Positions 9,826 through 38,786 of a stretch of 42,769 bases of DNA are shown here, one piece after another; the first letter of the stretch is position 1, and each line of letters starts with the position of its first letter. The position numbers were made by a program, and so were the translations under genes. The notes beneath the pieces were generated by a model. It had not been told where the DNA came from. It ran no database searches and worked only from the letters and a program-made list of their open reading frames with translations. Source of the stretch: a virus; the IMG/VR virus record IMGVR_UViG_3300048591_000167, positions 1 to 42,769 of that record. One strand, given 5' to 3'.

Positions 9826-11355
9826 TTATTTACCCAATATTTTGACGATCTGTTCCCACATCTGATCGGCGGTGATATCCACCTGACACGCCGCGCACCC
9901 GGTTTCTTCATCCTTGCGGCAATACTTGTACCCGTAGTGAAGAATATGACACGGGTAGCAGTCCGTGTTCTTCGGGGTAAGTGGATAGACGTTCTTCCAA
10001 TCCCGCGTCAGGTTGTTTTTGGATGAGTGCGAAAGGGTTATGACCTTCGGCACATCTTCAAACGCTACCGCGTTCAATACTCCGGTTTCCGGCCCGATTA
10101 CCATATCGGCTATCTGGGCGAATGACAGAGTTTCGCGCATGCTCCACTTTCCTGATTTCCTGATAACTCTCGGCTCTTTCTCCCATCCGGATTCGAGCAT
10201 CTGGCAAAGCACGTCGCCAACTAGGTAGATAACTGCGTCCTTGTATGTCAGGAGCAGCCTAGCGATGATCTGATCCAGATAGGGCCATGTTTTATGGACT
10301 CCAGAACCGGCAAGCGACCAGAGGATTACCGGCCCTTTGTTCTTATCCTTTTCCTTCCTAGCCCATGCCTTTTCATCCAATGTCGGATAGAACTTTTGCG
10401 CTGGTTTGTAGGGGATGCCCGCAAGCTCATGGGCAAACTCTAGGTAATTCTTGTCCAGATACTTTTGCCGTATCTCAAGCGGCCAGCGGTGATTCGCTCT
10501 ACCGGGGAGAGCTAGGAAAGTCCCTTCGACTGATTCAGACAGGTTGATTACCTTGTCGTATTTACTGTCCATCCATTCCCAATAGTCCGACAAGTCCTGA
10601 TTTGGAACCTGATCCTTATCCTGCACGATTGCATGGTCGATATGCGGATCGTGCTTAACGATGTCCCATCCGTTAGGAACCGTTACCAGCGTAATGTGAT
10701 AACCCTGTTCCTTGAGGCCGGGGAAGATACTGGAAGCCTGCATCAAGTCCCCCCAAGCGCCATACCTAACGACAGCGCACGTCTTGGCGGGCTTGGGTTC
10801 CTTCCATGACTCTTTCAGCTTCGCCCCGCCGATCTTCTTATAGACCTGGAAGAACGAGTATTCATCGCCCTCGTTGCGTTCTTCATTTACGATCAAATCC
10901 CATGCGTTCGGAACATGCTGCATGGCCTTGATGATGTCTTCCGGTAGGAAGTCGTGCTTGTGATCCGGGTTAGCGCCTTTCTCTCCGATGTTCGGGTAGA
11001 AGTTCTTGTGCGGCAGGTACAAGCACAGGTAGCCACCCATCTTGACGACACGCCACCATTCTCGCAGAGCTTCTTCGTATTTCTTGATGTGTTCCAGCAA
11101 GTGACTGGAAAACACAAAATCCATGCTGTTTGACGTGAATAAATCGAGTTTTTCGCACGTCTCTACATGGATATCCGGCTTGTACTTCCAGCCGAATTCT
11201 TGCGCATGATGTCCGTTATCGACACCGATGAAATGACTAAACGCCTTGAATGGCCCGCAGCCGAGGTCTAAGCCCCTGCCTTTCGTGTATTCGACGATAT
11301 CCCACTTGATCTTTGCTGATTCGTTTCCTTGCGGCCCATCAATACGCCAGGTCAT
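9826..11355 (-). CDS. Fused SAM methyltransferase and GT9-like heptosyltransferase
   Basis: 509 residues in two domains. Residues 1-175 are a class I methyltransferase: GLDLGCG (28-34), SMDFVFSSHLLEHI, WWRVVKMGGYLCLYLP. Residues 192-509 look like a family-9 glycosyltransferase of the ADP-heptose:LPS type: AVVRYGAWGDLMQASSIFPG, VILWSLAGSGVHKTWP, GPETGVLNAVAFEDVP. The C-terminus carries several Cys residues (TDCYPC, YKYCRKDEETGCAAC) that could bind a metal. It lies inside the virion operon just after a terminator (11365-11390) and has its own ribosome site, GGAGCATAG-ATG. It may modify host surface sugars or virion proteins (inference); the target is unknown. Confidence 0.75.
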   Translation of the reverse strand: MTWRIDGPQGNESAKIKWDIVEYTKGRGLDLGCGPFKAFSHFIGVDNGHHAQEFGWKYKPDIHVETCEKLDLFTSNSMDFVFSSHLLEHIKKYEEALREWWRVVKMGGYLCLYLPHKNFYPNIGEKGANPDHKHDFLPEDIIKAMQHVPNAWDLIVNEERNEGDEYSFFQVYKKIGGAKLKESWKEPKPAKTCAVVRYGAWGDLMQASSIFPGLKEQGYHITLVTVPNGWDIVKHDPHIDHAIVQDKDQVPNQDLSDYWEWMDSKYDKVINLSESVEGTFLALPGRANHRWPLEIRQKYLDKNYLEFAHELAGIPYKPAQKFYPTLDEKAWARKEKDKNKGPVILWSLAGSGVHKTWPYLDQIIARLLLTYKDAVIYLVGDVLCQMLESGWEKEPRVIRKSGKWSMRETLSFAQIADMVIGPETGVLNAVAFEDVPKVITLSHSSKNNLTRDWKNVYPLTPKNTDCYPCHILHYGYKYCRKDEETGCAACQVDITADQMWEQIVKILGK

Positions 11356-24040: not shown

Positions 24041-24391
24041 TTATGCTAGGCCATTCGCCAGCATCGCCCGCCACACCCTACCCACCGCCCGCTCGAAACT
24101 GGCCTCCAGGTTCCGCAGCCTATACACCGCATGCAGGTATTGGTGGTTGATAGCAGCGGCTTCGTCTGGGGATAGGTCGTCAATGATCCGGTTCATTACC
24201 ACGGCGGCGTGTTCGTCGGCCTGCTCGCACAGGCAATCAAACGCATCATCCCCGCTGATTCCGCCGCACTGAATCCCTGCCGATCTGGCCGGGTAGCCTA
24301 GCCTCAATCCTGGGTGGCGCATCCATAGCGCCCAATTGCGGAGGTGGAAATCTACTAGCGGGTGGATGTCTGTTTTCACTGTATTAGGCAC
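24041..24391 (-). CDS. Putative Q-like late antitermination regulator
   Basis: 116 residues from GTG at 24391. The C-terminal half (DLSPDEAAAINHQYLHAVYR, then FERAVGRVWRAMLANGLA) has the helix-turn-helix-like pattern of Q/RinA-type late regulators of phages. The N-terminal part contains PARSAGIQCGGISGDDAFDC. Strongest support is position: last gene of the minus early operon, directly followed by a sigma70-type promoter and a terminator. The start codon lies in an attC-core-like GCCTAAT (minus strand). Confidence 0.5.
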   Translation of the reverse strand: MPNTVKTDIHPLVDFHLRNWALWMRHPGLRLGYPARSAGIQCGGISGDDAFDCLCEQADEHAAVVMNRIIDDLSPDEAAAINHQYLHAVYRLRNLEASFERAVGRVWRAMLANGLA

Positions 24392-24465: not shown

Positions 24466-24831
24466 CTACTTCACGTTAGGTGCCAACATCGCGGTAATCC
24501 CTGCCACCGCGTCTTCGTACTCTTCCGCCCAAGTGTTCTTGTCAATCGTTCGCCACGGTTTCGCGCTGCGCTTCACGGCACACCATGCGTAACTTCCAGC
24601 GTTCGGCCACCGCTTCACGACCTCGATATAGACATCCAAGTCTTCGGCTGAAAGGTTCTCCGCATCCGCTCCCGGAACAAACAGATCATTGCAGTTAATC
24701 GCCGGGTAAGCGCCGTCGTCCCAAGTCTTTTTGTCGTCGTTGTAGCTCGTCAGGAAAATATGGTCTTCGCGCAAAAGCCAGAAAATCTTCCGTGCTGTTT
24801 CCAGTTCGGCAGTCATTGTGTCTAGTTGCAT
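24466..24831 (-). CDS. Cassette 1 protein, unknown
   Basis: 121 residues from the ATG at 24831 (GGAGA ribosome site). MQLDTMTAELETARKIFWLL is followed by an acidic middle with AENLSAEDLDVYIEVVKRWP and a Trp-rich C-terminus. Soluble; no family recognised. The last codons (PNVK) read through the boundary core, so the stop lies just outside the cassette. The gene runs opposite to the attC orientation. Confidence 0.65.
   Translation of the reverse strand: MQLDTMTAELETARKIFWLLREDHIFLTSYNDDKKTWDDGAYPAINCNDLFVPGADAENLSAEDLDVYIEVVKRWPNAGSYAWCAVKRSAKPWRTIDKNTWAEEYEDAVAGITAMLAPNVK
24475..24481 (+). other. Left boundary core site of the array
   Basis: GTTAGGT core without a matching inverse core or arms to its left, as expected where the first cassette joined a non-attC target. 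Just outside is a small inverted repeat (GTCCA...TGGAC, 24433-24455), and a similar ATTAGGC occurs at 24383-24389. Confidence 0.6.
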
Positions 24832-24865
24832 TTGTGTCTCCAAAAATCGGCCCTGGTGGTACGGC

Positions 24866-24931
24866 ACCTAACACGTCGCTCAACACGGACGGGCGCAAAA
24901 GCAGCGCCCGCCGGTTAGCTAGGCGTTAGCC
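24866..24931 (+). other. attC site A
   Basis: Inverse core ACCTAAC (24866-24872), core GTTAGCC (24925-24931). Arms GCTCAAC and GTTAGCT; GGGCGC/GCGCCC central stem. Extra C in the left arm. Confidence 0.85.
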
Positions 24932-24932
24932 A

Positions 24933-25097
24933 TCAACTGCGCAGCGCGTTGATTGTTTCGCGCGTGTCGTTGTCGTACAACAGCACATGGCTTCCTTCAT
25001 CGGGGTCCATTAACGTGCAGTTGTACTCACGCAAAATCCGCAGTATTTCGTCCCTGCATTTCTCAATGTCACGTTTTTCGTTTTCTGGTTTTTTCAT
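24933..25097 (-). CDS. Cassette 2 small protein
   Basis: 54 residues: MKKPENEKRDIEKCRDEILR, then ILREYNCTLMDPDEG, HVLLYDNDTRETIN and ALRS. GGGAG lies seven bases before the ATG. Charged helix then a short beta-like segment; no membrane part. It fills the whole cassette between sites A and B and stops one base beyond the core of A. Function unknown. Confidence 0.65.
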   Translation of the reverse strand: MKKPENEKRDIEKCRDEILRILREYNCTLMDPDEGSHVLLYDNDTRETINALRS

Positions 25098-25122
25098 GTC
25101 TTTTCTCCCGTCAATCGTTGAT

Positions 25123-25194
25123 GGCTAACCCGTCGTTCCAGCGGAGCCTCCGGCGATAATGCCGCCGGAGTCCCGCTGAACTTCAACGTTAGGT
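25123..25194 (+). other. attC site B
   Basis: Inverse core GGCTAAC, core GTTAGGT (25188-25194). Arms GTTCCAGCGG and CCGCTGAAC differ by one extra C on the left. Central stem CTCCGGCG/CGCCGGAG (approximate). Confidence 0.85.
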
Positions 25195-25195
25195 T

Positions 25196-25924
25196 TCACA
25201 ACAGCCCCTCTTGCACAGGCTGTCTTGTTTCTTCGGGCGGCAGTAGCTCGCCCTGATTCTTTGCCGCTGCGATCCGCTCGCACGCGATGTCGAAGTACCG
25301 GCGTTCGAGTTCAATCCCCACGAAGCGCCGGCCCAACTGTTCGCACGCGACTCCGGTGGTGCCCGACCCCATGAACGGGTCCAGCACCACGCCACCGGCC
25401 GGCGTCGTCTTCTCAACAAGCCGCTTCATCAACCCCACCGGCTTCTGTGCCAAGTGCTCGCGGTCGCCTATCGGCTCGCTGCGGTGCTCGATCACGTCGC
25501 CGTCACCCGTTGGCACCTTCGGCGCGCTCTCGGCCTCGCAGAACAAAATCAGTTCGTGCTGGTGGCGCCAGGAATACCCGTTGATGCTGGTCTTCTTGTC
25601 CCAGATCAGCGGTCGCAGCTTGCGAAAGTGGCTGTAGGCCGTGGCGTATAACACCGGGTAGCTCTGCCCGTCGCAGAACACATAGGCCGTGCCCGTGGCC
25701 TTCAGGCATCGGCATGCAGCCTTGAAGAAGTCCGCGAAGTAGTGGTTCAGTATCGACAGGTCGCCAATGCTGCGCGCACTGCCAGAGCGAACGCTGTAGT
25801 GCGCAGCCGGCAGGAAATACGGCGGGTCCGTCGCCAGCGTGTCCACGGGCGCAAGTTCGGCCATCACTTCCATCGCATCCCCGTGCCACAGTTCCGCGTT
25901 CCCGATCACTACTTTCTCAGCCAT
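25196..25924 (-). CDS. Cassette 3: DNA methyltransferase (beta class, N4/N6 type)
   Basis: 242 residues. Catalytic TDPPYF with DPPY at 33-36 comes before the SAM-binding DPFMGSGTTG (about 181-190), the order of beta-class adenine-N6 or cytosine-N4 methyltransferases. The part between is the target-recognition region. ATG at 25924 is preferred (AAAGGA five bases upstream) over an ATG two codons earlier. First 12 residues, last residues (PVQEGLL) and flanks nearly match cassette 9. Probably protects phage DNA from host restriction (inference); specificity unknown. Confidence 0.9.
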   Translation of the reverse strand: MAEKVVIGNAELWHGDAMEVMAELAPVDTLATDPPYFLPAAHYSVRSGSARSIGDLSILNHYFADFFKAACRCLKATGTAYVFCDGQSYPVLYATAYSHFRKLRPLIWDKKTSINGYSWRHQHELILFCEAESAPKVPTGDGDVIEHRSEPIGDREHLAQKPVGLMKRLVEKTTPAGGVVLDPFMGSGTTGVACEQLGRRFVGIELERRYFDIACERIAAAKNQGELLPPEETRQPVQEGLL

Positions 25925-25955
25925 CTTCATCCTTTGTCAGTGCGCCACCAGTGAA

Positions 25956-26013
25956 ACCTAACCCGTCGCTCGAACGGACGGCCTACGGCCGCCGTTCAGC
26001 TCCCACGTTGGGC
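25956..26013 (+). other. attC site C
   Basis: Inverse core ACCTAAC, core GTTGGGC (26007-26013). Arms GCTCGAACGG and CCGTTCAGC; central GGCCTACGGCC. Very similar to site I. Confidence 0.85.
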
Positions 26014-26303
26014 GGCACCCAGCCAACAGCTTTCGCGGCATCGCCCAGGACGGCGTATTCGCCGCATTGGCAAATCCCGACCGAGTGGTCGCAGCCGCCG
26101 ACCGAATCCATGTACTCGTGCAGCAAATCGAGTGCCGGGCGCATCGCATCGCGCGTGTTCGCGGCGGCTATAGCTGTCTCTGACTGCTGGTCCTGTACTC
26201 CCATCGCGTAGGCAGTGCGGAAAACATGCTGCTCCACCGCATCAATTTCACGCCCTTGCTGTTTCTCGTAGGTCGCCATTGCCCGCATCATCATTCGTTC
26301 CAT
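25983..26303 (-). CDS. Cassette 4 protein, unknown
   Basis: 106 residues from the ATG at 26303 (GGAG eight bases upstream). Helical, with MERMMMRAMATYEKQQGREI and DAMRPALDLLHEYMDSVGGC, then GICQCGEYA. The end (PNVGAERRP) is encoded by attC C: the frame runs through the core into the hairpin before stopping. No family recognised. Confidence 0.6.
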   Translation of the reverse strand: MERMMMRAMATYEKQQGREIDAVEQHVFRTAYAMGVQDQQSETAIAAANTRDAMRPALDLLHEYMDSVGGCDHSVGICQCGEYAVLGDAAKAVGWVPPNVGAERRP

Positions 26304-26318
26304 TTCCCACGCTCCTGC

Positions 26319-26382
26319 GCCCAACAGGCGCTTCAAGCGGGACGCGCGAAAATCCGCGCGCCCCTTAAGCTAAACGTTAGCC
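26319..26382 (+). other. attC site D
   Basis: Inverse core GCCCAAC, core GTTAGCC (26376-26382). Arms GCTTCAAGCGGG and CCCCTTAAGC; central CGCGCG pairing. Extra C on the left. Confidence 0.85.
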
Positions 26383-26990
26383 CACTGCATCACCACCGCC
26401 TGCGCGATGCCTTCAAACGTCTGGCTCCGGTCGCGCTTGCGTGTTGGTGATGGTGGCATCTTCCAAATACGCTGCTCCCGTCCGTCAACCAAGTTGGTCG
26501 GTTTCAGCGGATCCAAATTGTGCAGGGCAAACCCGGTCTTTTTGGTTTCTCCGTGCCCGTGCTCATACGGCTGCACATAGCAAACCGGCGCGTCGAGGTG
26601 CTGGAAAATCACGCTCACCGGGTTTTCGAGGGCAACCCTCTCCCCGTGTTGCTTTGCCAGTTCCCAAAGCCCGACAGTCCAGGCAATTGCCTGCTCTCGT
26701 TTGTGGTGCATCGGCATCCCGCGCCCATACCAGCGGTTCCCGCTCACTGCCATGGCAGTACAGTCCGGGTGCAAGATAATCAACCCCCATCGCCTGGTCG
26801 GTATCACTTCGCAAATGTCCTGCTGGTAATGCCAAGCAGGGTTCCCCCGTGTCGGCGCAAGATCGCACGAGTACGCCTCATGCCCAGCATCCCGCAGTGC
26901 CTTGGTTATCGTCTGGCTCTCTTCGCATCCGACCAAAACCGGGCTAACCCGTCGGTCGAGTGCGACGCCCTCCATGCCGCTTCGCGTCAT
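26370..26990 (-). CDS. Cassette 5: C5-cytosine-methyltransferase-like protein
   Basis: Up to 206 residues. VLVGCEESQTITKALRDAGH and EAYSCDL form the SAM-binding start, and HGERVALENPVSVIFQHLDA carries an ENPV motif like the ENV catalytic-region motif of C5 methyltransferases. Then comes TKKTGFALHNL. A PC catalytic loop is not obvious (HPDC is in its place), so activity may differ or be lost. The natural start would be near VLVGCEES; in this context the first ATGs (26990, 26975) lie inside attC E. The end AN-V is read through the core of site D. Confidence 0.65.
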   Translation of the reverse strand: MTRSGMEGVALDRRVSPVLVGCEESQTITKALRDAGHEAYSCDLAPTRGNPAWHYQQDICEVIPTRRWGLIILHPDCTAMAVSGNRWYGRGMPMHHKREQAIAWTVGLWELAKQHGERVALENPVSVIFQHLDAPVCYVQPYEHGHGETKKTGFALHNLDPLKPTNLVDGREQRIWKMPPSPTRKRDRSQTFEGIAQAVVMQWANV

Positions 26991-27020
26991 TCCGGTCGCG
27001 CCTCACCTAGTGCGTTAGGT
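26942..27020 (+). other. attC site E
   Basis: Inverse core GGCTAAC, core GTTAGGT (27014-27020). Arms GGTCGAGTGCGAC and GTCGCGCCTCACC; extra C on the left. Longer central part than most sites here. Confidence 0.8.
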
Positions 27021-27040
27021 TTCTCTATTCCGAGGTCACT

Positions 27041-27724
27041 ATGAACTGGGATCAAATCGTTACGAAGGTAAGCCCGTACATCGTCAAGATCGATACCCCG
27101 TCCGGTAGCGGCACCGGATTCCTCTATTCCTACAACGAAGACAGAACGTGGTGCGCTATAGCAACCGCATTGCATGTCGTGTCTTCCGCTGACGAATGGC
27201 AACAACCGATCAAATTGCATAGCTATGGCTTTTCGCAAACGGTATTTCTCAAAGAGTCTCAACGCATCATCGTCCCAGATTGGAAAACAGATTCAGCCGT
27301 GATACTTCTTGAAAGCGGCAAGCTTCAATTTCCAGATGGCTTGATACCACTCCGTCCCATAGAAAGTCGCCTCTCCATCGGCGTCGAAGTCGGCTGGCTG
27401 GGCTATCCGGCTATCGAGCCTTTCACCGTGTGCTTCTTCAACGGGGCCGTTAGCGCCAGGCGCGACGACAACCGCTCTTACCTTATTGACGGCGTCGCTA
27501 TCAACGGCGTTAGCGGCAGCCCCGTTCTGTACTCCACCGAAACCGATGGAGTTCAAATCGTCGGAGTCATGACCGCTTATCGCGCTAATCGCGCCCACGG
27601 TGACGCCTTGCCCGGATTGTCCGTCGCTCAAGATGTTTCGCACTTTCATGATGTCGTTCAACGTATCCGCTCGCTCGATGAAGGCCGCCGCCAACGTGCA
27701 GAAATTGAGGCCGCCCGTGAGTAA
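27041..27724 (+). CDS. Cassette 6: trypsin-like serine protease
   Basis: 227 residues. Triad candidates: His45 in ATALHVV, Asp84 in KTDSAVIL and Ser158 in INGVSGSPVL, with SGSGTGFLYS near the start, the pattern of chymotrypsin-fold (S1-like) proteases. No signal peptide, so it would act in the cytoplasm. GAGG precedes the ATG by six to seven bases. This is the only cassette gene in the main array in the usual integron orientation (start near a core, attC after the stop), and it therefore runs against phage early transcription. Similar proteases occur in defence systems, but no partner is present. Confidence 0.85.
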   Translation: MNWDQIVTKVSPYIVKIDTPSGSGTGFLYSYNEDRTWCAIATALHVVSSADEWQQPIKLHSYGFSQTVFLKESQRIIVPDWKTDSAVILLESGKLQFPDGLIPLRPIESRLSIGVEVGWLGYPAIEPFTVCFFNGAVSARRDDNRSYLIDGVAINGVSGSPVLYSTETDGVQIVGVMTAYRANRAHGDALPGLSVAQDVSHFHDVVQRIRSLDEGRRQRAEIEAARE

Positions 27725-27736
27725 GTATCCCGAGAA

Positions 27737-27802
27737 ACCTAACCTTTCGTTCGAGCGGACCTGCGCAAAGAGCCGCGCAGGCCGCTCAACTCCACGTTAG
27801 GG
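27737..27802 (+). other. attC site F
   Basis: Inverse core ACCTAAC, core GTTAGGG (27796-27802). Arms GTTCGAGCGG and CCGCTCAAC; central CTGCGC/GCGCAG. Extra C on the left. Confidence 0.85.
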
Positions 27803-28011
27803 GACTTCATTGCGTCCTCCAGTTTCTTTACTCGCTGTTCAAGTGTCGGGGCTTCCCACGTTGGTTGCCCATAAAAAGCGCCCATCCCTCTCGGTTCGCG
27901 CTGCCCGCACAACCGGCACACGTACCAAGTCATTGCGCTACGTGGCGTCCCTTCGACGTAGGGTTCGTGCATCCCCCTGTAAGCGCTGTTGCTCTGGCAA
28001 ATACCTCGCAT
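27739..28011 (-). CDS. Cassette 7 small protein with a Cys pair
   Basis: 90 residues. GGAGG lies five bases before the ATG. WYVCRLCGQREPRG suggests half a zinc ribbon; a short helix follows (LEQRVKKLEDAMKS). From PNVELSGLRG onward the C-terminus is encoded by attC F. Function unknown. Confidence 0.6.
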   Translation of the reverse strand: MRGICQSNSAYRGMHEPYVEGTPRSAMTWYVCRLCGQREPRGMGAFYGQPTWEAPTLEQRVKKLEDAMKSPNVELSGLRGSLRRSARTKG

Positions 28012-28024
28012 GGCGTCCTCCGTC

Positions 28025-28093
28025 CCCTAACCCGTCGTTCCAGCGGATCCGCGCAATAAACCCTGCGCGTCCCGCTGAACTTCGACGTTATGC
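28025..28093 (+). other. attC site G
   Basis: Inverse core CCCTAAC, core GTTATGC (28087-28093). Arms GTTCCAGCGG and CCGCTGAAC, the same as site B. Confidence 0.85.
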
Positions 28094-28094
28094 C

Positions 28095-28355
28095 TCACGC
28101 TCTGCATGGCACGTTCGCCAGCACTTCGCGCATTTCAATGATCGCCTTCGCCCGCTCGATCTCATGCGGCAGTGCGCGGCGCAGAGTCACCCACTTGCCG
28201 TGGTTGTCGTAGAAAATCCACCCGTGTTGCTGGTGCTCCGGGTTGAACTTCAGGGCAAACTTGCCGCCGCTTGAGCCAACCATCGGCAGCATGTCGTCCG
28301 GAGGCATAACATTTACGTCAACCGGACCTTGCGCCGGCAGCGTTTCGTGGTTCAT
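28095..28355 (-). CDS. Cassette 8 protein, unknown
   Basis: 86 residues, AAGGA seven bases before the ATG. GGKFALKFNPEHQQHGWIFY and DNHGKWVTLRRALP suggest a small beta-rich fold. It stops one base before the core of site G, so it carries no attC-encoded tail. Not recognised. Confidence 0.6.
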   Translation of the reverse strand: MNHETLPAQGPVDVNVMPPDDMLPMVGSSGGKFALKFNPEHQQHGWIFYDNHGKWVTLRRALPHEIERAKAIIEMREVLANVPCRA

Positions 28356-28364
28356 TTGTCGTCC

Positions 28365-28400
28365 TTTCCCGGCGCAAGGCCGGTTACGTTAGCGTTAGGT
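28365..28400 (+). other. attC site H, only the right half kept
   Basis: Core GTTAGGT (28394-28400) with the arm CCGGTTACGTTAGCG, similar to the right arm of site M. No inverse core or left arm is seen; a CCGGCGCAAGGCCGG hairpin remains. Probably truncated, so cassettes 8 and 9 may now move as one. Confidence 0.6.
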
Positions 28401-28401
28401 T

Positions 28402-29085
28402 TCACAACAGCCCCTCCTGCACAGGCTCGGGCGCTTTCTCTGGCGGTAGTAGCTGCCCCTGGGCCTGGGCCTGCTCTATGCGGCGGCAGGCGATGTCGAA
28501 ATACTTGGGTTCGCGCTCGATGCCGATGAAGGTGCGTTGCAGGTTCATGGCGGCGACGCCGGTGGTGCCGCTGCCCATGAAGGGGTCGAGGATGGTTTGG
28601 GGTTCCCCCGCGCACTTGATGCACCACTCCATCAGCCCTACCGGCTTCTGCGTCGGGTGTTCGCGCCCGTCTTGCCTTACCTCTGTGCCCTGCAACGCTT
28701 TGTCGTAAATGCGAAGCGTCCCCCGCTTAAAGGAAGTCCAAGCGAACTCCCCATCCGCGTAGTGCATGCCCCTGTTTTTCTTGTCCCACAGCAAGGGGGA
28801 TCGGCAGTTGCCGAGGTGCGCAATGAAATAATTCCCCCCCCAAAAAACCTGCTCGTCGGAAATCGCACGCAGCGCGGCGAACACCTCCGCATCCGGCGCA
28901 ACATCCCAAGCGTTTGCGTCGGCGGCCTCTTGGGCACTTAGCGAGTTGCCCCCGGTGATTGACCAAGATCCAATCCCGTAGGGCGGGTCCGTGATAACCG
29001 CATCCACCTTGCCAAGCGTAGGCAGAATCTCCATGCAGTCGCCCAGCCAAAGTTCCGCGCTCCCGATCACTACTTTCTCTGCCAT
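28402..29085 (-). CDS. Cassette 9: DNA methyltransferase (beta class, N4/N6 type)
   Basis: 227 residues. TDPPYGIG with DPPY at 33-36, then HPTQKPVGLMEWCIK and ILDPFMGSGTTGVAA for SAM binding: beta-class order. Its central region differs entirely from that of cassette 3, yet the ends (MAEKVVIG-AELW and LLPPE...PVQEGLL) and flanking DNA are nearly identical, so it probably recognises another target. ATG at 29085 has AAAGGA at good spacing. Likely anti-restriction. Confidence 0.9.
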   Translation of the reverse strand: MAEKVVIGSAELWLGDCMEILPTLGKVDAVITDPPYGIGSWSITGGNSLSAQEAADANAWDVAPDAEVFAALRAISDEQVFWGGNYFIAHLGNCRSPLLWDKKNRGMHYADGEFAWTSFKRGTLRIYDKALQGTEVRQDGREHPTQKPVGLMEWCIKCAGEPQTILDPFMGSGTTGVAAMNLQRTFIGIEREPKYFDIACRRIEQAQAQGQLLPPEKAPEPVQEGLL

Positions 29086-29116
29086 CTTCATCCTTTGTCA
29101 GTGCGCCACCAGTGAA

Positions 29117-29173
29117 ACCTAACCTGTCGCTCAAACGGACGGCCTACGGCCGCCGTTTAGCTCCGCGTTATGC
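29117..29173 (+). other. attC site I
   Basis: Inverse core ACCTAAC, core GTTATGC (29167-29173). Arms GCTCAAACGG and CCGTTTAGC; central GGCCTACGGCC as in site C. Confidence 0.85.
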
Positions 29174-29382
29174 AACTCGTCACCGTCCCACGGCGCGCCA
29201 ACCTTCCGAAGCGCCAATTTGAGCGGCAGGAGCGTGCACACCTCGCCGTCGGCCAAGTGCCCGTTCGCGTCGAGCGTCTGCTTGATCGCCTGCCGAAGCA
29301 GCATGTTTTCGTCGTGCAGTTCTTCGACCGTGTTCGCCAGGTCGTCATACATTTCGAGCTTCGCATTGTCTGGTATCGCCAT
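29131..29382 (-). CDS. Cassette 10 small helical protein
   Basis: 83 residues. MYDDLANTVEELHDENMLLR looks like a short coiled coil; GGGGGA lies about eight bases before the ATG. The tail HNAELNGGRRPSV is encoded by attC I. Function unknown. Confidence 0.6.
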   Translation of the reverse strand: MAIPDNAKLEMYDDLANTVEELHDENMLLRQAIKQTLDANGHLADGEVCTLLPLKLALRKVGAPWDGDELHNAELNGGRRPSV

Positions 29383-29385
29383 TGT

Positions 29386-30375
29386 TCAATCCCCCGTTTG
29401 TTGCATAACTGTGCTTTCGAGCGGGACGGCTTCGCCGCCCCTCAAAGCGGCGTTAGGCACCGCACTTGCGTGCGGCTGTGCGCGCGGGTCACCCTTGCAA
29501 AACACCAGCACGTTCTGGTGCGTCTTCGCCAGCTTCCGGCCGCTTTCAAACTGCTTCGTCACGCGCATCGCCGCAGTGCCTACGGGCGTTGCCAGAATTG
29601 CCTCGTTGTATAGCCGCGCGCCGGCCTGCTCGAATCCGTCGATGGTTTCGCTCACGAAGTTCCGATAGAACCCGCGCGAATCGCGGAAGTCACCGACCAC
29701 AAAGCACGCAAAGGTGTCTGGCTTCATCTTGCCAACGGCGCGCAGAATGATCCGCTTGTATGCGGCCACAAACGCATGCCAGTCCATCGCGCTTAAATCA
29801 CGCGGGTCATCGCTGTACTTTTCCAGGTCGCCATAGGGCGGGCACGAAAACACGAAGTCAGCCTCGGGCGCTGTGGGCAGCGTTTCCATGCTGTCACCGC
29901 ACACCCATACCGGGCGCACGCTTGGCGCTATGTCTTCGGCCTGTGTCTCGTTCGCTGCAATCTGTTCGGGCCGCAGCTCGCCGCCCCAGTATTTCCGGCC
30001 AAGAGCGCCGGCCACAATGCCGCGCACGCTGCCGCCGGCGAACGGATCGACCACCTGGCCGCCCGGCGGGCAGAACCAGCGGTATGCCAGCTCGCACAGC
30101 ACCGGGTCGAAAATGCTTGTCCCATCGCCCGCAGTCACCGCCTTACCGTTTACGAGGCGCTGCCATTCGTGGTCGTTGTAGGCTTTGGCGTTTCGTCCTA
30201 CCTCAGACTGCAAACCAATGGACAGCCATGCGCGCTTGCGTTCCAGCCATTCTCCTTGTTTGGCATCCAGCACCGTAAAGGGCGGCAGCGTGAATCGCTC
30301 GGCTACCGGCCCGCTTGCCTTCGGCTTAATCACCTCTCCGAATAAATCAGTTCCGAATATCGCTAGTTCAGCCAT
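29386..30375 (-). CDS. Cassette 11: DNA methyltransferase (SAM motif before CPPY)
   Basis: 329 residues from the ATG at 30375 (GGAG five bases upstream; a GTG and an ATG directly before are alternatives). SAM-binding VVDPFAGGSVRGI (DPFAGGS 110-116) precedes the catalytic FSCPPYGDL (SCPPY 177-181), the reverse of the two beta-class cassettes, so an independent enzyme. C-terminal part contains THQNVLVFCKG. The tail from PNAALRGGEAV is read through attC J. Likely an N6/N4 methylase; target unknown. Confidence 0.85.
   Translation of the reverse strand: MAELAIFGTDLFGEVIKPKASGPVAERFTLPPFTVLDAKQGEWLERKRAWLSIGLQSEVGRNAKAYNDHEWQRLVNGKAVTAGDGTSIFDPVLCELAYRWFCPPGGQVVDPFAGGSVRGIVAGALGRKYWGGELRPEQIAANETQAEDIAPSVRPVWVCGDSMETLPTAPEADFVFSCPPYGDLEKYSDDPRDLSAMDWHAFVAAYKRIILRAVGKMKPDTFACFVVGDFRDSRGFYRNFVSETIDGFEQAGARLYNEAILATPVGTAAMRVTKQFESGRKLAKTHQNVLVFCKGDPRAQPHASAVPNAALRGGEAVPLESTVMQQTGD
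29403..29458 (+). other. attC site J
   Basis: Inverse core GCATAAC, core GTTAGGC (29452-29458). Arms GCTTTCGAGCGGG and CCCCTCAAAGC; extra C on the left. Confidence 0.85.
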
Positions 30376-30401
30376 CATCACTCCGTAGTTACCGTTTTGC
30401 C

Positions 30402-30471
30402 TGCCAACCCGTCGCTCAAGCGGGACGCGCCGCGATAAGGCCGCGTCGCGCCCCTTAGCTATGCGTTATGC
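30402..30471 (+). other. attC site K
   Basis: Inverse core TGCCAAC, core GTTATGC (30465-30471). Arms GCTCAAGCGGGACGCG and CGCGCCCCTTAGC; extra C on the left. Confidence 0.85.
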
Positions 30472-30699
30472 GTCAAGGTTGTACTTCTCATCCAGCAAGC
30501 GCCGCGACTGCTCGCAGATCTTGCCGCCATCAAGGCGCACCGTGCATTGCGATACCTTCGCCCGCAGGCCGCGCCACGCTCCACGAACAAACGGCAGCCA
30601 GTCGGCAGCAGCCTTGCGCGACGGGTACGCATTCCCGACCCTCGTCCAGCCTGTAGCCGGGTGCATCACCATCGTAAAAAACACGGTTCGTTTTTCCAT
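30466..30699 (-). CDS. Cassette 12 small protein
   Basis: 77 residues; AGGA before the ATG at 30699. MEKRTVFFTMVMHPATGWTR then SRKAAADWLPFVRGAWRG and a basic C-terminus ending YNLDA. Pattern (VFFxMVMHP...AYPSRKAAxxWLPFVRxAWRG) suggests a small folded domain; not recognised. The stop TAA is supplied by the core of site K. Confidence 0.6.
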   Translation of the reverse strand: MEKRTVFFTMVMHPATGWTRVGNAYPSRKAAADWLPFVRGAWRGLRAKVSQCTVRLDGGKICEQSRRLLDEKYNLDA

Positions 30700-30716
30700 C
30701 TCTCATCCTTCGCGCC

Positions 30717-30779
30717 GCATAACCCGGCGCTCAAGCGGGACCGTCCGCAAGCGGCCGGCCCCTTAGCTCTGCGTTAGGC
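30717..30779 (+). other. attC site L
   Basis: Inverse core GCATAAC, core GTTAGGC (30773-30779). Arms GCTCAAGCGGG and CCCCTTAGC; central CCGTCCGCAAGCGGCCGG. Confidence 0.85.
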
Positions 30780-30940
30780 ACCCACTCAATCGTTACGACG
30801 AACTCCCCTTGCGGGAAACCGTGATCGTCTTGCGGTATCGCTGCCGCTGGTGGGTTGAAGTCTTTATCAAACGCCTCAAACACGTCACGGCCAACATCAA
30901 CAATACTTTCTCCGTCGTATGTCTTTTTAAACAGTTCCAT
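30731..30940 (-). CDS. Cassette 13 small acidic protein
   Basis: 69 residues; GAGGAG seven bases before the ATG, directly after the inverse core of site M. MELFKKTYDGESIVDVGRDV then FEAFDKDFNPP, EGEFVVTIEW-like strand, and a tail PNAELRGRPLADGPA encoded by attC L. DNA-mimic-like acidity is limited to the first half. Function unknown. Confidence 0.6.
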   Translation of the reverse strand: MELFKKTYDGESIVDVGRDVFEAFDKDFNPPAAAIPQDDHGFPQGEFVVTIEWVPNAELRGRPLADGPA

Positions 30941-30953
30941 CTCATTCTCCTCT

Positions 30954-31019
30954 GCCTAACATTTGCGTCAACGCGGACGCTCCGCCTGCGGCTCCGCGCC
31001 GGTTACGCCAGCGTTATGC
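30954..31019 (+). other. attC site M
   Basis: Inverse core GCCTAAC, core GTTATGC (31013-31019). Arms GCGTCAACGCGG and CCGGTTACGC; extra C on the left. Confidence 0.85.
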
Positions 31020-31312
31020 GTCGCTAGCGCAGCCAGGAATTCGCGCACCCGCGGCATCACGTACTTGTCGCGCACTCGCTCCACGACGCAGCAGCTTCCG
31101 TTGTGGCGCTCTTCCCAGCGCCGGCATTGCCGCTTGTGCATTTCCAGCATGTCGCTGAACTTGTAGGTGTTCCACTCGATGCTTCTGCCTTCTTCCCAGC
31201 GCCAGTACCACCGCGCCGCAAGCTCGGCCTCTTCGAGTGCCATCAGTTCGGCATCCGCTCTTGCGGCTATCGCCGTCAGCACGTCGCCAATCTGCTCTTG
31301 TGTCGGTTCCAT
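30968..31312 (-). CDS. Cassette 14 protein, helical
   Basis: 114 residues from the ATG at 31312; the upstream open frame crosses attC N and is unlikely to be translated. Helical, charged: EQIGDVLTAIAARADAELMA, ARWYWRWEEGRSIEWNTYKF, then RQCRRWEERHNGSCCVVERV. The tail HNAGVTGAEPQAERPR is encoded by attC M. Not recognised. Confidence 0.6.
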   Translation of the reverse strand: MEPTQEQIGDVLTAIAARADAELMALEEAELAARWYWRWEEGRSIEWNTYKFSDMLEMHKRQCRRWEERHNGSCCVVERVRDKYVMPRVREFLAALATHNAGVTGAEPQAERPR

Positions 31313-31330
31313 CTTCCCCAAATCCGCGCC

Positions 31331-31424
31331 GCATAACACCACGGTCGAGGTCGCCGCTTCGCGGCTGGACGCTTCGCATGCCGGCTGCGCCGTCAAGCTC
31401 GCGCCCCTCACCTCGCCGTTGGGC
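31331..31424 (+). other. attC site N (right end of array)
   Basis: Inverse core GCATAAC, core GTTGGGC (31418-31424). Arms GGTCGAGGTCGC and CCCCTCACC; long central hairpins. Its core ends ten bases before the ssb stop codon. Confidence 0.75.
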
Positions 31425-38092: not shown

Positions 38093-38154
38093 GGTTAACG
38101 CTGGCAATGAGCGGACGGCCGATTAGGCCGGTCCGATCGATTAACTGGTTGGGC
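38093..38154 (-). other. attC site O (diverged)
   Basis: GGTTAAC (38093-38099) and GTTGGGC (38148-38154) flank paired segments CGGACGGCC and GGCCGGTCCG around GATTA. Arms are imperfect; the higher-coordinate arm is longer, suggesting minus polarity. Confidence 0.55.
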
Positions 38155-38176
38155 GGCTGCGCCCGGAGAGACTGAA

Positions 38177-38485
38177 ATGCCACACACAGAGGGTCTTTAC
38201 GCAAGCGAAGAAGGCGGAAATTGGCGTGTTATGGCCGCCGATGAAAACGGCGGATACACCGTGGCCGATATGTGCTGCGACGACCAAGCCGCTAATGCGC
38301 GGCTGTTTGCCGCAGCCCCGAAGATGCTTGACGCGATGATGCGCTGTTACCGAATGCTGTTGTCCGAACCGGACACGAAGGGCGCGTTGTTCAAGGCCGA
38401 GAACATCTTGCGCGAAGCCATAGCAGAAGCGGCGACGATGCCGCCCAACGGCTTGGTAACCGGCTGCCGCAGGCAGTCCGGTTGA
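38177..38485 (+). CDS. Second-array cassette protein
   Basis: 102 residues; GGAGAG six bases before the ATG. GLYASEEGGNWRVMAADENG, MCCDDQAANARLFAAAPKML and NILREAIAEAA: looks like the small phage proteins containing a D-A-R-L-x-A-A-P-x-M-L motif. The end PNGLVTGCRRQSG is encoded by attC P in the same relative frame as the tails in the main array. Function unknown. Confidence 0.65.
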   Translation: MPHTEGLYASEEGGNWRVMAADENGGYTVADMCCDDQAANARLFAAAPKMLDAMMRCYRMLLSEPDTKGALFKAENILREAIAEAATMPPNGLVTGCRRQSG

Positions 38486-38498
38486 CCTGGTGTTAGGC
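38443..38498 (-). other. attC site P
   Basis: Cores GCCCAAC (38443-38449) and GTTAGGC (38492-38498), arms GGTAACCGG and CCGGTTGACC, central CTGCCGCAGGCAG-type hairpin. The extra base is on the higher-coordinate arm, so the site is in standard orientation on the minus strand. Confidence 0.8.
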
Positions 38499-38516
38499 CC
38501 GATTGTGGAGGATGCG

Positions 38517-38786
38517 ATGAGCGTTGAAGTGCACAAGGAACCCAGCGAGAAGAACTGCTGGCCGAAGGAGAACTGCTGCGTGTGCCGGACGCCGACAAGC
38601 TACTGGTACGGCACCGGCCCGCTGAATGTGGCGCTGTGCCCGACGTGCGCAACGCGAGCGACGGCCGACAGCTTGCCGACGAAGGCGCAGTGGATTGACG
38701 CCGAGCGAGGTGGGCAGATTTTGCCTAATGCCTCGCATCGTATTCGCCAGTCTCGAAAAGCTTCCGCTCCGCAGCGCGGCGCTTGA
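38517..38786 (+). CDS. Second-array cassette zinc-finger-like protein
   Basis: 89 residues from the ATG at 38517 (GGAGG five to six bases upstream). Two Cys pairs, NCCVCRTPTS and ALCPTCATRA, make a likely zinc ribbon. PNA at GCCTAATGCC marks the outer core; the rest (SHRIRQSRKASAPQRGA) is read from DNA antisense to the endolysin end, so the tail is an accident of insertion. Function unknown. Confidence 0.6.
   Translation: MSVEVHKEPSEKNCWPKENCCVCRTPTSYWYGTGPLNVALCPTCATRATADSLPTKAQWIDAERGGQILPNASHRIRQSRKASAPQRGA

Follow-up and report, generated by a model that had tools for sequence, protein, structure and literature searches.

The DNA examined here, referred to as the window, is a 42,769-nucleotide IMG/VR virus record (IMGVR_UViG_3300048591_000167) that carries phage head and packaging genes, with matches to terminase, portal, and major head proteins. 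From 33.1 kb down to 24.5 kb on the minus strand, the window encodes ERF, a YqaJ-type exonuclease, and ssb, followed by a series of accessory genes separated by hairpin-forming sites (Table 1). We find that these sites are integron attC sites, and that the region they occupy is a cassette array. A megablast search of positions 18.0 to 42.8 kb against public phages returned no match, and no Rfam family matches the window.

Table 1. Features of the two cassette arrays and their flanks. R1, covariance model built from the 14 sites of the window; R2, covariance model built from class 1 resistance cassettes.
Position	Strand	Feature	Supporting data
24466..24867	-	c1 gene, 133 aa, unknown	no Pfam match
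24475..24481	+	core (GTTAGGT) that opens cassette c1; no attC or attI to its left	pairs with R'' of a2 for 10 nt; attI scan
24866..24931	+	attC a2 (end of cassette c1)	R1 60.3 bits, R2 17.5 bits
24933..25097	-	c2 gene, 54 aa, unknown	codon score
25123..25194	+	attC a3 (end of c2)	R1 58.7 bits; R2 only a partial match, E 2.4
25196..25930	-	c3 gene, DNA methyltransferase 1	PF01555 3.6e-31; 92% identical in phage contig L164
25956..26013	+	attC a4 (end of c3, methyltransferase 1)	R1 57.2, R2 23.0 bits; near-identical to a10
25983..26336	-	c4 gene, up to 117 aa, unknown	codon score
26319..26382	+	attC a5 (end of c4)	R1 55.4 bits; weak in R2, 8.2 bits
26370..26990	-	c5 gene, up to 206 aa; relatives in phage contigs that were not found to carry arrays	L008, 48% identity over 194 aa
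26942..27020	+	attC a6 (end of c5)	R1 55.2 bits
27041..27724	+	c6 gene, trypsin-like protein, the only gene in canonical orientation	PF13365 3.9e-07
27737..27802	+	attC a7 (end of c6)	R1 65.3, R2 15.2 bits
27739..28011	-	c7 gene, 90 aa, unknown	codon score
28025..28093	+	attC a8 (end of c7)	R1 65.6, R2 19.6 bits
28095..28355	-	c8 gene, 86 aa, unknown	codon score
28304..28400	+	attC a9 (end of c8); long hairpin whose loop holds the start codon of the c8 gene	R1 51.3 bits; sequence
28402..29091	-	c9 gene, DNA methyltransferase 2	PF01555 3.6e-23
29117..29173	+	attC a10 (end of c9, methyltransferase 2)	R1 58.5, R2 22.2 bits
29131..29382	-	c10 gene, 83 aa	74% identical over 47 aa in integrase-bearing contig L220
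29386..30381	-	c11 gene, DNA methyltransferase 3	PF01555 3e-08
29403..29458	+	attC a11 (end of c10)	R1 52.7, R2 21.7 bits
30402..30471	+	attC a12 (end of c11, methyltransferase 3); its R'' reads TGCCAAC, one base short of the complement of the c11 core	R1 73.0 bits
30466..30699	-	c12 gene, 77 aa, unknown	codon score
30717..30779	+	attC a13 (end of c12)	R1 66.8, R2 20.2 bits
30731..30940	-	c13 gene, 69 aa, unknown	codon score
30954..31019	+	attC a14 (end of c13)	R1 57.8 bits
30968..31312	-	c14 gene, likely 114 aa, unknown	frame chosen by eye; codon score undecided
31331..31424	+	attC a15 (end of c14), about 10 bp from the ssb stop codon	R1 52.1 bits
31435..31863	-	ssb, next to the array (operon context)	PF00436 1.3e-30
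38093..38154	-	attC of the second mini-array	R2 24.8 bits, the best hit of the window; R1 27.5
38177..38485	+	mini-array gene, 102 aa, also antisense to attC polarity	short relatives in integrase-bearing contigs L371/L372
38443..38498	-	attC of the second mini-array	R1 35.7, R2 18.3 bits

The original prediction held that positions 24475 to 31424 form a phage-borne cassette array with 14 attC sites and no integrase, and this observation is confirmed. Each of the 14 sites (a2 to a15, 24866 to 31424) has R'' and R' cores (RYYYAAC and GTTRRRY) around paired arms, with the extrahelical base that sets polarity in the left arm on the plus strand. The predicted start at 24475 is the core of the first cassette. 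Folding of the minus strand had been proposed in advance as a check on each site, and it yields -13 to -28 kcal/mol for these 14, whereas the sequence to the left of the first core (a1) reaches only -5.8 kcal/mol and is not a folding attC. In contrast, the label “Q-like” that had been given to the gene on the far side of the array (24041 to 24391) is not supported, because this gene has no Pfam or PHROG match. It has only 30 to 32% relatives, in L222/L218 (L numbers denote contigs and loci gathered for comparison).

A search with an attC covariance model, likewise proposed beforehand, was conducted with two models. Model R2 was derived from seven attCs of class 1 integron resistance cassettes, with loops trimmed because an alignment retaining the loop lengths was unusable, and it received no input from the window. 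Its nine best hits in the window are seven of the array sites on the plus strand and two further sites at 38.1 to 38.5 kb on the minus strand. The other array sites score low or are missed by R2. Model R1, which was built from all 14 sites, gives them 51 to 73 bits by construction, but it also finds class 1 attCs on the correct strand. Base pairing is supported by covariation, with 95.2% of cells paired and a score of 0.418 compared to 0.112 for shuffled alignments (0 of 500 shuffles as good).

The strongest argument that these elements bound cassettes, rather than being mere hairpins, comes from the pairing of cores. The bases after GTT at the start of a cassette are complementary to those before AAC at its end for 8 to 13 positions in 13 of 14 cassettes, while the two cores of a single site match at only 3 to 6 positions (132 versus 61 bases in total; 0 of 100,000 permutations as good). 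The paralogous methyltransferase cassettes c3 and c9 make the same point directly. Their ends are alike from the TTAGG that follows the cut inward and up to the CGTT of their attCs, and are unlike beyond both points. The unit is core-gene-attC, which is the unit moved by an integron integrase, although recombination of these sites was not assayed here. No match to the integron integrase model TIGR02249 is present in the window, and no attI-like motif was found (best score 10.4, compared to 21.8 to 40.1 for the training sites described below). With more than the two attC sites required and no integrase, the region is an integron cassette array without integrase (CALIN) and not a complete integron.

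Two features were not recognized in the original prediction. First, a second mini-array with one clear cassette (38093 to 38498) lies on the other strand. It was revealed by a simple arm-pairing script that otherwise found only part of the sites. Second, the genes in both arrays are antisense to attC polarity. In the usual bacterial cassette the open reading frame (ORF) reads toward its attC, whereas 13 of 14 genes in the main array and the gene of the mini-array read away from it. The orientations in the main array were assigned by eye. By a codon-usage score alone, 11 cassettes of the main array are called reversed, c6 and c14 are undecided, and c1 is not scored, while the mini-array gene is called reversed.

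To examine whether this flip is general, viral contigs were gathered in ways that do not consider it, namely by the methyltransferase protein, by attC patterns, and by the integrase. With the codon-usage score, viral cassettes are 225 reversed to 2 same, with 70 undecided, and 65 contigs are reversed, one is tied, and none is canonical. Many of these contigs are fragments, all come from one database, and the virus calls were verified for only part of them. Restricting the count to contigs in which we found terminase or other structural genes such as capsid or tail gives 94 to 0. The same method gives 41 same to 5 reversed in bacterial contigs carrying the same attC type, class 1 control included, and 23 to 2 for arrays next to IntI in bacterial genomes drawn from one class (45 to 2 by ORF length). 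The score was trained on long ORFs of the fetched loci, bacterial ones included, and was adopted because ORF length left many viral cassettes undecided (144 reversed, 31 same, 122 undecided). An earlier count on the first set alone gave a Fisher p of 7e-31 and 9 rather than 5 reversed bacterial cassettes, the difference arising because negative scores were floored at zero in the later count. Because cassettes within a contig are not independent, the contig counts are the safer statement. Polarity was checked with the class 1 model on a subset of viral arrays and agrees except at one site (position 4157 of L353). The method can also see a canonical phage array, as isolated phage TJE1 is canonical, so the flip is not universal in phages. 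Pseudoalteromonas phage PH101 looks mixed. The attCs of P12002L were not convincingly found with R2 and MW202573 was not examined, so neither is used.

Some relatives carry their own machinery. Five of the first 40 array- or attC-bearing viral records encode an integron integrase above the curated cut-off of TIGR02249, and one of these, L277, is plainly a phage (major head, tape measure, tail fibre, and helicase-primase). Tyrosine recombinases near the arrays in L280 and L181 are not typical IntI. A search with an integrase alignment found 231 viral relatives, of which the best 80 were kept. In 37 contigs with at least two attC sites, the array lies on the attI side of intI with ordinary polarity, intI diverges from the array polarity, and cassettes are 101 reversed to 2 same. 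By matching the R'' of the first attC to a core, the probable insertion point was located in 36 of 40 loci. In most of these it is preceded by a conserved motif, with the consensus TGTCGTYGAATTTAA followed directly by GTTRGGC, mostly 41 to 180 nt from the start of intI. This shared attI (GAATTNAA followed directly by GTT) scores above 18 in most viral IntI loci but in few bacterial ones, the clearest being L334/L471 and L463.

The integrases next to these arrays are mostly of one viral group. In the tree, 63 viral and 2 bacterial-genome integrases form one group with moderate support (SH-aLRT 87, by a quick method). The IntI of L176 is a long branch and was left out of the second tree. L403, a viral contig with a terminase match, has an IntI that sits among bacterial ones but still has reversed cassettes. 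This suggests that the flip is kept by selection and not only by descent, although this is an inference.

Cassettes are also shared between viral contigs. One of 840 bp is 97.5% identical between the phage contigs L187 and L348, ending 1 to 4 bases from the cuts, and one of 428 bp is identical between L273 and L283. Overall, the ends of matches are 3 to 5 times enriched at cuts (32/143 and 49/141, compared to 7.4% expected). We also sought an empty site. Relatives identified by exonuclease and terminase (first 100 scanned) gave five single attC hits and no array, and no relative with the same junction between ssb and the 24041 gene but without the array was found, so the insertion point was not located. 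Genes shared between the window and other viral contigs are listed in Table 1.

The closest precedent is the report by Qi et al. 2023 (PMC9892861) of 17 phage CALINs, three complete phage integrons, and attC x attI1 recombination by IntI1 for five of six phage attCs. Those arrays often carry DNA methyltransferase genes and mostly lack an integrase, and that of TJE1 lies next to ssb as observed here. Therefore, the interpretation of the original prediction is only partly supported: a phage-borne array without an integrase is right, but the suggestion that such arrays are rare or undescribed is half right, because phage CALINs are already published. Gene orientation relative to attC polarity is not discussed in that report, and what differs here is a flipped array of 14 attCs with relatives that have a viral IntI group and a shared attI. 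A literature search, confined to open PMC papers without preprints, found no report of reversed phage cassettes, which is weak evidence of novelty.

Bacterial sedentary chromosomal integrons and class 1 integrons share the attC architecture and the GTTRRRY core cut after its G, and the relatives share their IntI-attI-array geometry. However, bacterial cassettes read from Pc toward the attI-distal attC (gene, then attC), whereas here the ORF is reversed within the cassette. In the “reverse” integrons of Treponema (PMC3607928), intI and the cassette genes are also transcribed in the same direction, but there intI is turned toward attI. The ORF-attC relation in Treponema is the usual one. The window has no intI and is not of this type, and in the viral relatives intI, attI, and attC polarity are the usual ones while the ORF in each cassette is flipped.

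We consider it likely, with fairly high confidence, that the array lies at the promoter-distal end of the early recombination operon of the phage and belongs to a phage-adapted integron lineage in which the ORF inside each cassette is flipped, the window holding an integrase-less member. In this view, attC polarity, attI, and intI are arranged as in an ordinary integron, but the genes face attI and intI, so that the array reads as a continuation of the phage operon instead of from a Pc promoter beside attI. Our data demonstrate the attC sites and their polarity, the cassette as a unit of inheritance cut between G and TT, the flip, and the existence of viral contigs with intI, attI, and the same flip. 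We infer, but have not demonstrated, that cassettes are moved by an integron integrase acting on folded attC bottom strands, that they are transcribed through the attCs from the phage operon, that this phage depends on an integrase supplied in trans (by a co-infecting phage, prophage, or host integron), and that cargo such as the three DNA methyltransferases helps escape host defence. Neither an integrase nor attI is present in the window, so its present mobility is not known, and c6 is in canonical orientation. The cargo, which also includes many small unknown ORFs, fits counter-defence.

IntI recombines the folded bottom strand of attC with attI or another attC, and the polarity of the sites fixes the orientation of the insert. 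With the ORF flipped, a cassette inserted at attI ends up at the promoter-distal end of an operon that comes from the phage side and runs into intI. We infer that this would give expression without Pc, tie integrase expression to infection, and keep new genes from disturbing those upstream. The recombinogenic strand in the flipped arrangement is also the coding strand; whether it is more often single-stranded during phage replication was not tested. A broader reading, which we regard as probable, is that tailed phages have their own integron lineage, comprising a viral IntI group, a viral attI, and a viral pool of reversed cassettes. This pool would be kept apart from the bacterial pool because a reversed cassette is not read from a bacterial Pc and a canonical one is not read from the phage operon. 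New cassettes would land at the promoter-distal end of the phage operon next to intI, and phages such as that of the window would be integrase-less users of the pool.

Among the alternatives, it is possible but unlikely that the phage captured a fragment of a bacterial integron by chance, with orientation reflecting only which cassettes stayed expressed in the phage operon and no phage-specific lineage involved. Published phage CALINs are read in this way (PMC9892861), the attC type also occurs in betaproteobacterial genomes with IntI, and the window has no intI. However, bacterial arrays with this attC type hold few reversed cassettes (5 of 46), so a chance block would be mostly canonical. 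In addition, cassettes are shared between viral contigs, which have their own IntI group and attI.

Somewhat less likely still is that modules are shuffled by the homologous recombination system of the phage, using attC-like repeats as homology and no integron integrase. ERF, YqaJ, and ssb lie next to the array, and such shuffling would also keep cassette-wise ends. However, the arms of each attC pair with each other across differing sequences, so crossovers do not fall inside the hairpin. Moreover, the homology of c3 and c9 stops at the GTT core, match ends are enriched at the cut, and IntI is present in relatives. Finally, although attC hairpins are thought to act as weak terminators (PMC9892861) and ORF length alone left 122 cassettes undecided and called 31 same, we consider it very unlikely that the hairpins are terminators or RNA regulatory elements resembling attC, or that the reversed signal comes from ORF calling or from virus-detection tools favouring few strand switches, given the hits with a class 1-derived model, the cassette-wise core pairing, the IntI and attI next to the arrays, the opposite answer given by the same codon method for bacterial controls, and the 94 to 0 count on contigs with phage structural genes.

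These findings suggest that phages do not merely carry stray bacterial cassettes, but use a modified integron as their own gene-capture platform, including for DNA methyltransferases that could serve counter-defence. Phages thus appear to run their own version of the system that bacteria use to trade genes. The flip gives a simple, testable marker that separates a phage cassette pool from the bacterial one, explains how cassettes could be expressed without Pc, and yields a new set of integrases and attI sites.

The N-terminal start of the methyltransferase genes, together with the adjoining attC, is conserved between cassettes and with several other phage contigs (L178, L181, L187, L215, and L216), while the rest of the enzyme differs. 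This shared segment is perhaps a reused expression or recombination module. In another cassette, c8, the start codon of the gene lies inside the loop of attC a9. In addition, the mini-array possibly includes a second cassette, an ORF of about 90 aa ending near a degenerate core (GCCTAAT) that partly pairs with the R'' of the attC at 38443-38498. Outside the arrays, a protein encoded between structural genes exhibits a weak match to a phage methyltransferase family (phrog_22502).

Coordinates of additional features in the window and in one other contig
Sequence	Positions	Feature
Window	9826-11355	Protein between structural genes
Window	24041-24391	ORF with a relative in L222 and L218
Window	25878-25989 and 29040-29150	Start of methyltransferase genes plus adjoining attC
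Window	28304-28400	attC a9
Window	38499-38727	Possible second cassette of the mini-array
L281	7621-7983	Integrase N-terminal remnant

L222 and L218, both from sample 3300033067, are the only loci with a relative of the window ORF listed at 24041-24391. Because L222 also has an ssb and attCs, it may be the closest in gene order. L237, a short contig from the genome contigs that is labelled Candidatus Dependentiae, carries reversed cassettes and a relative of methyltransferase 2, and it may be a phage contig binned with a bacterium. Integrases from bacterial genomes at L334/L471 (genome G057) and L422 (genome G396) fall inside the viral IntI group, with L334 having a strong viral-type attI. These are perhaps prophage integrons. 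Finally, in contig L281 an integrase N-terminal remnant lies beside an attI and a flipped array. This locus may represent an integron that is losing its integrase, as the window may have done.
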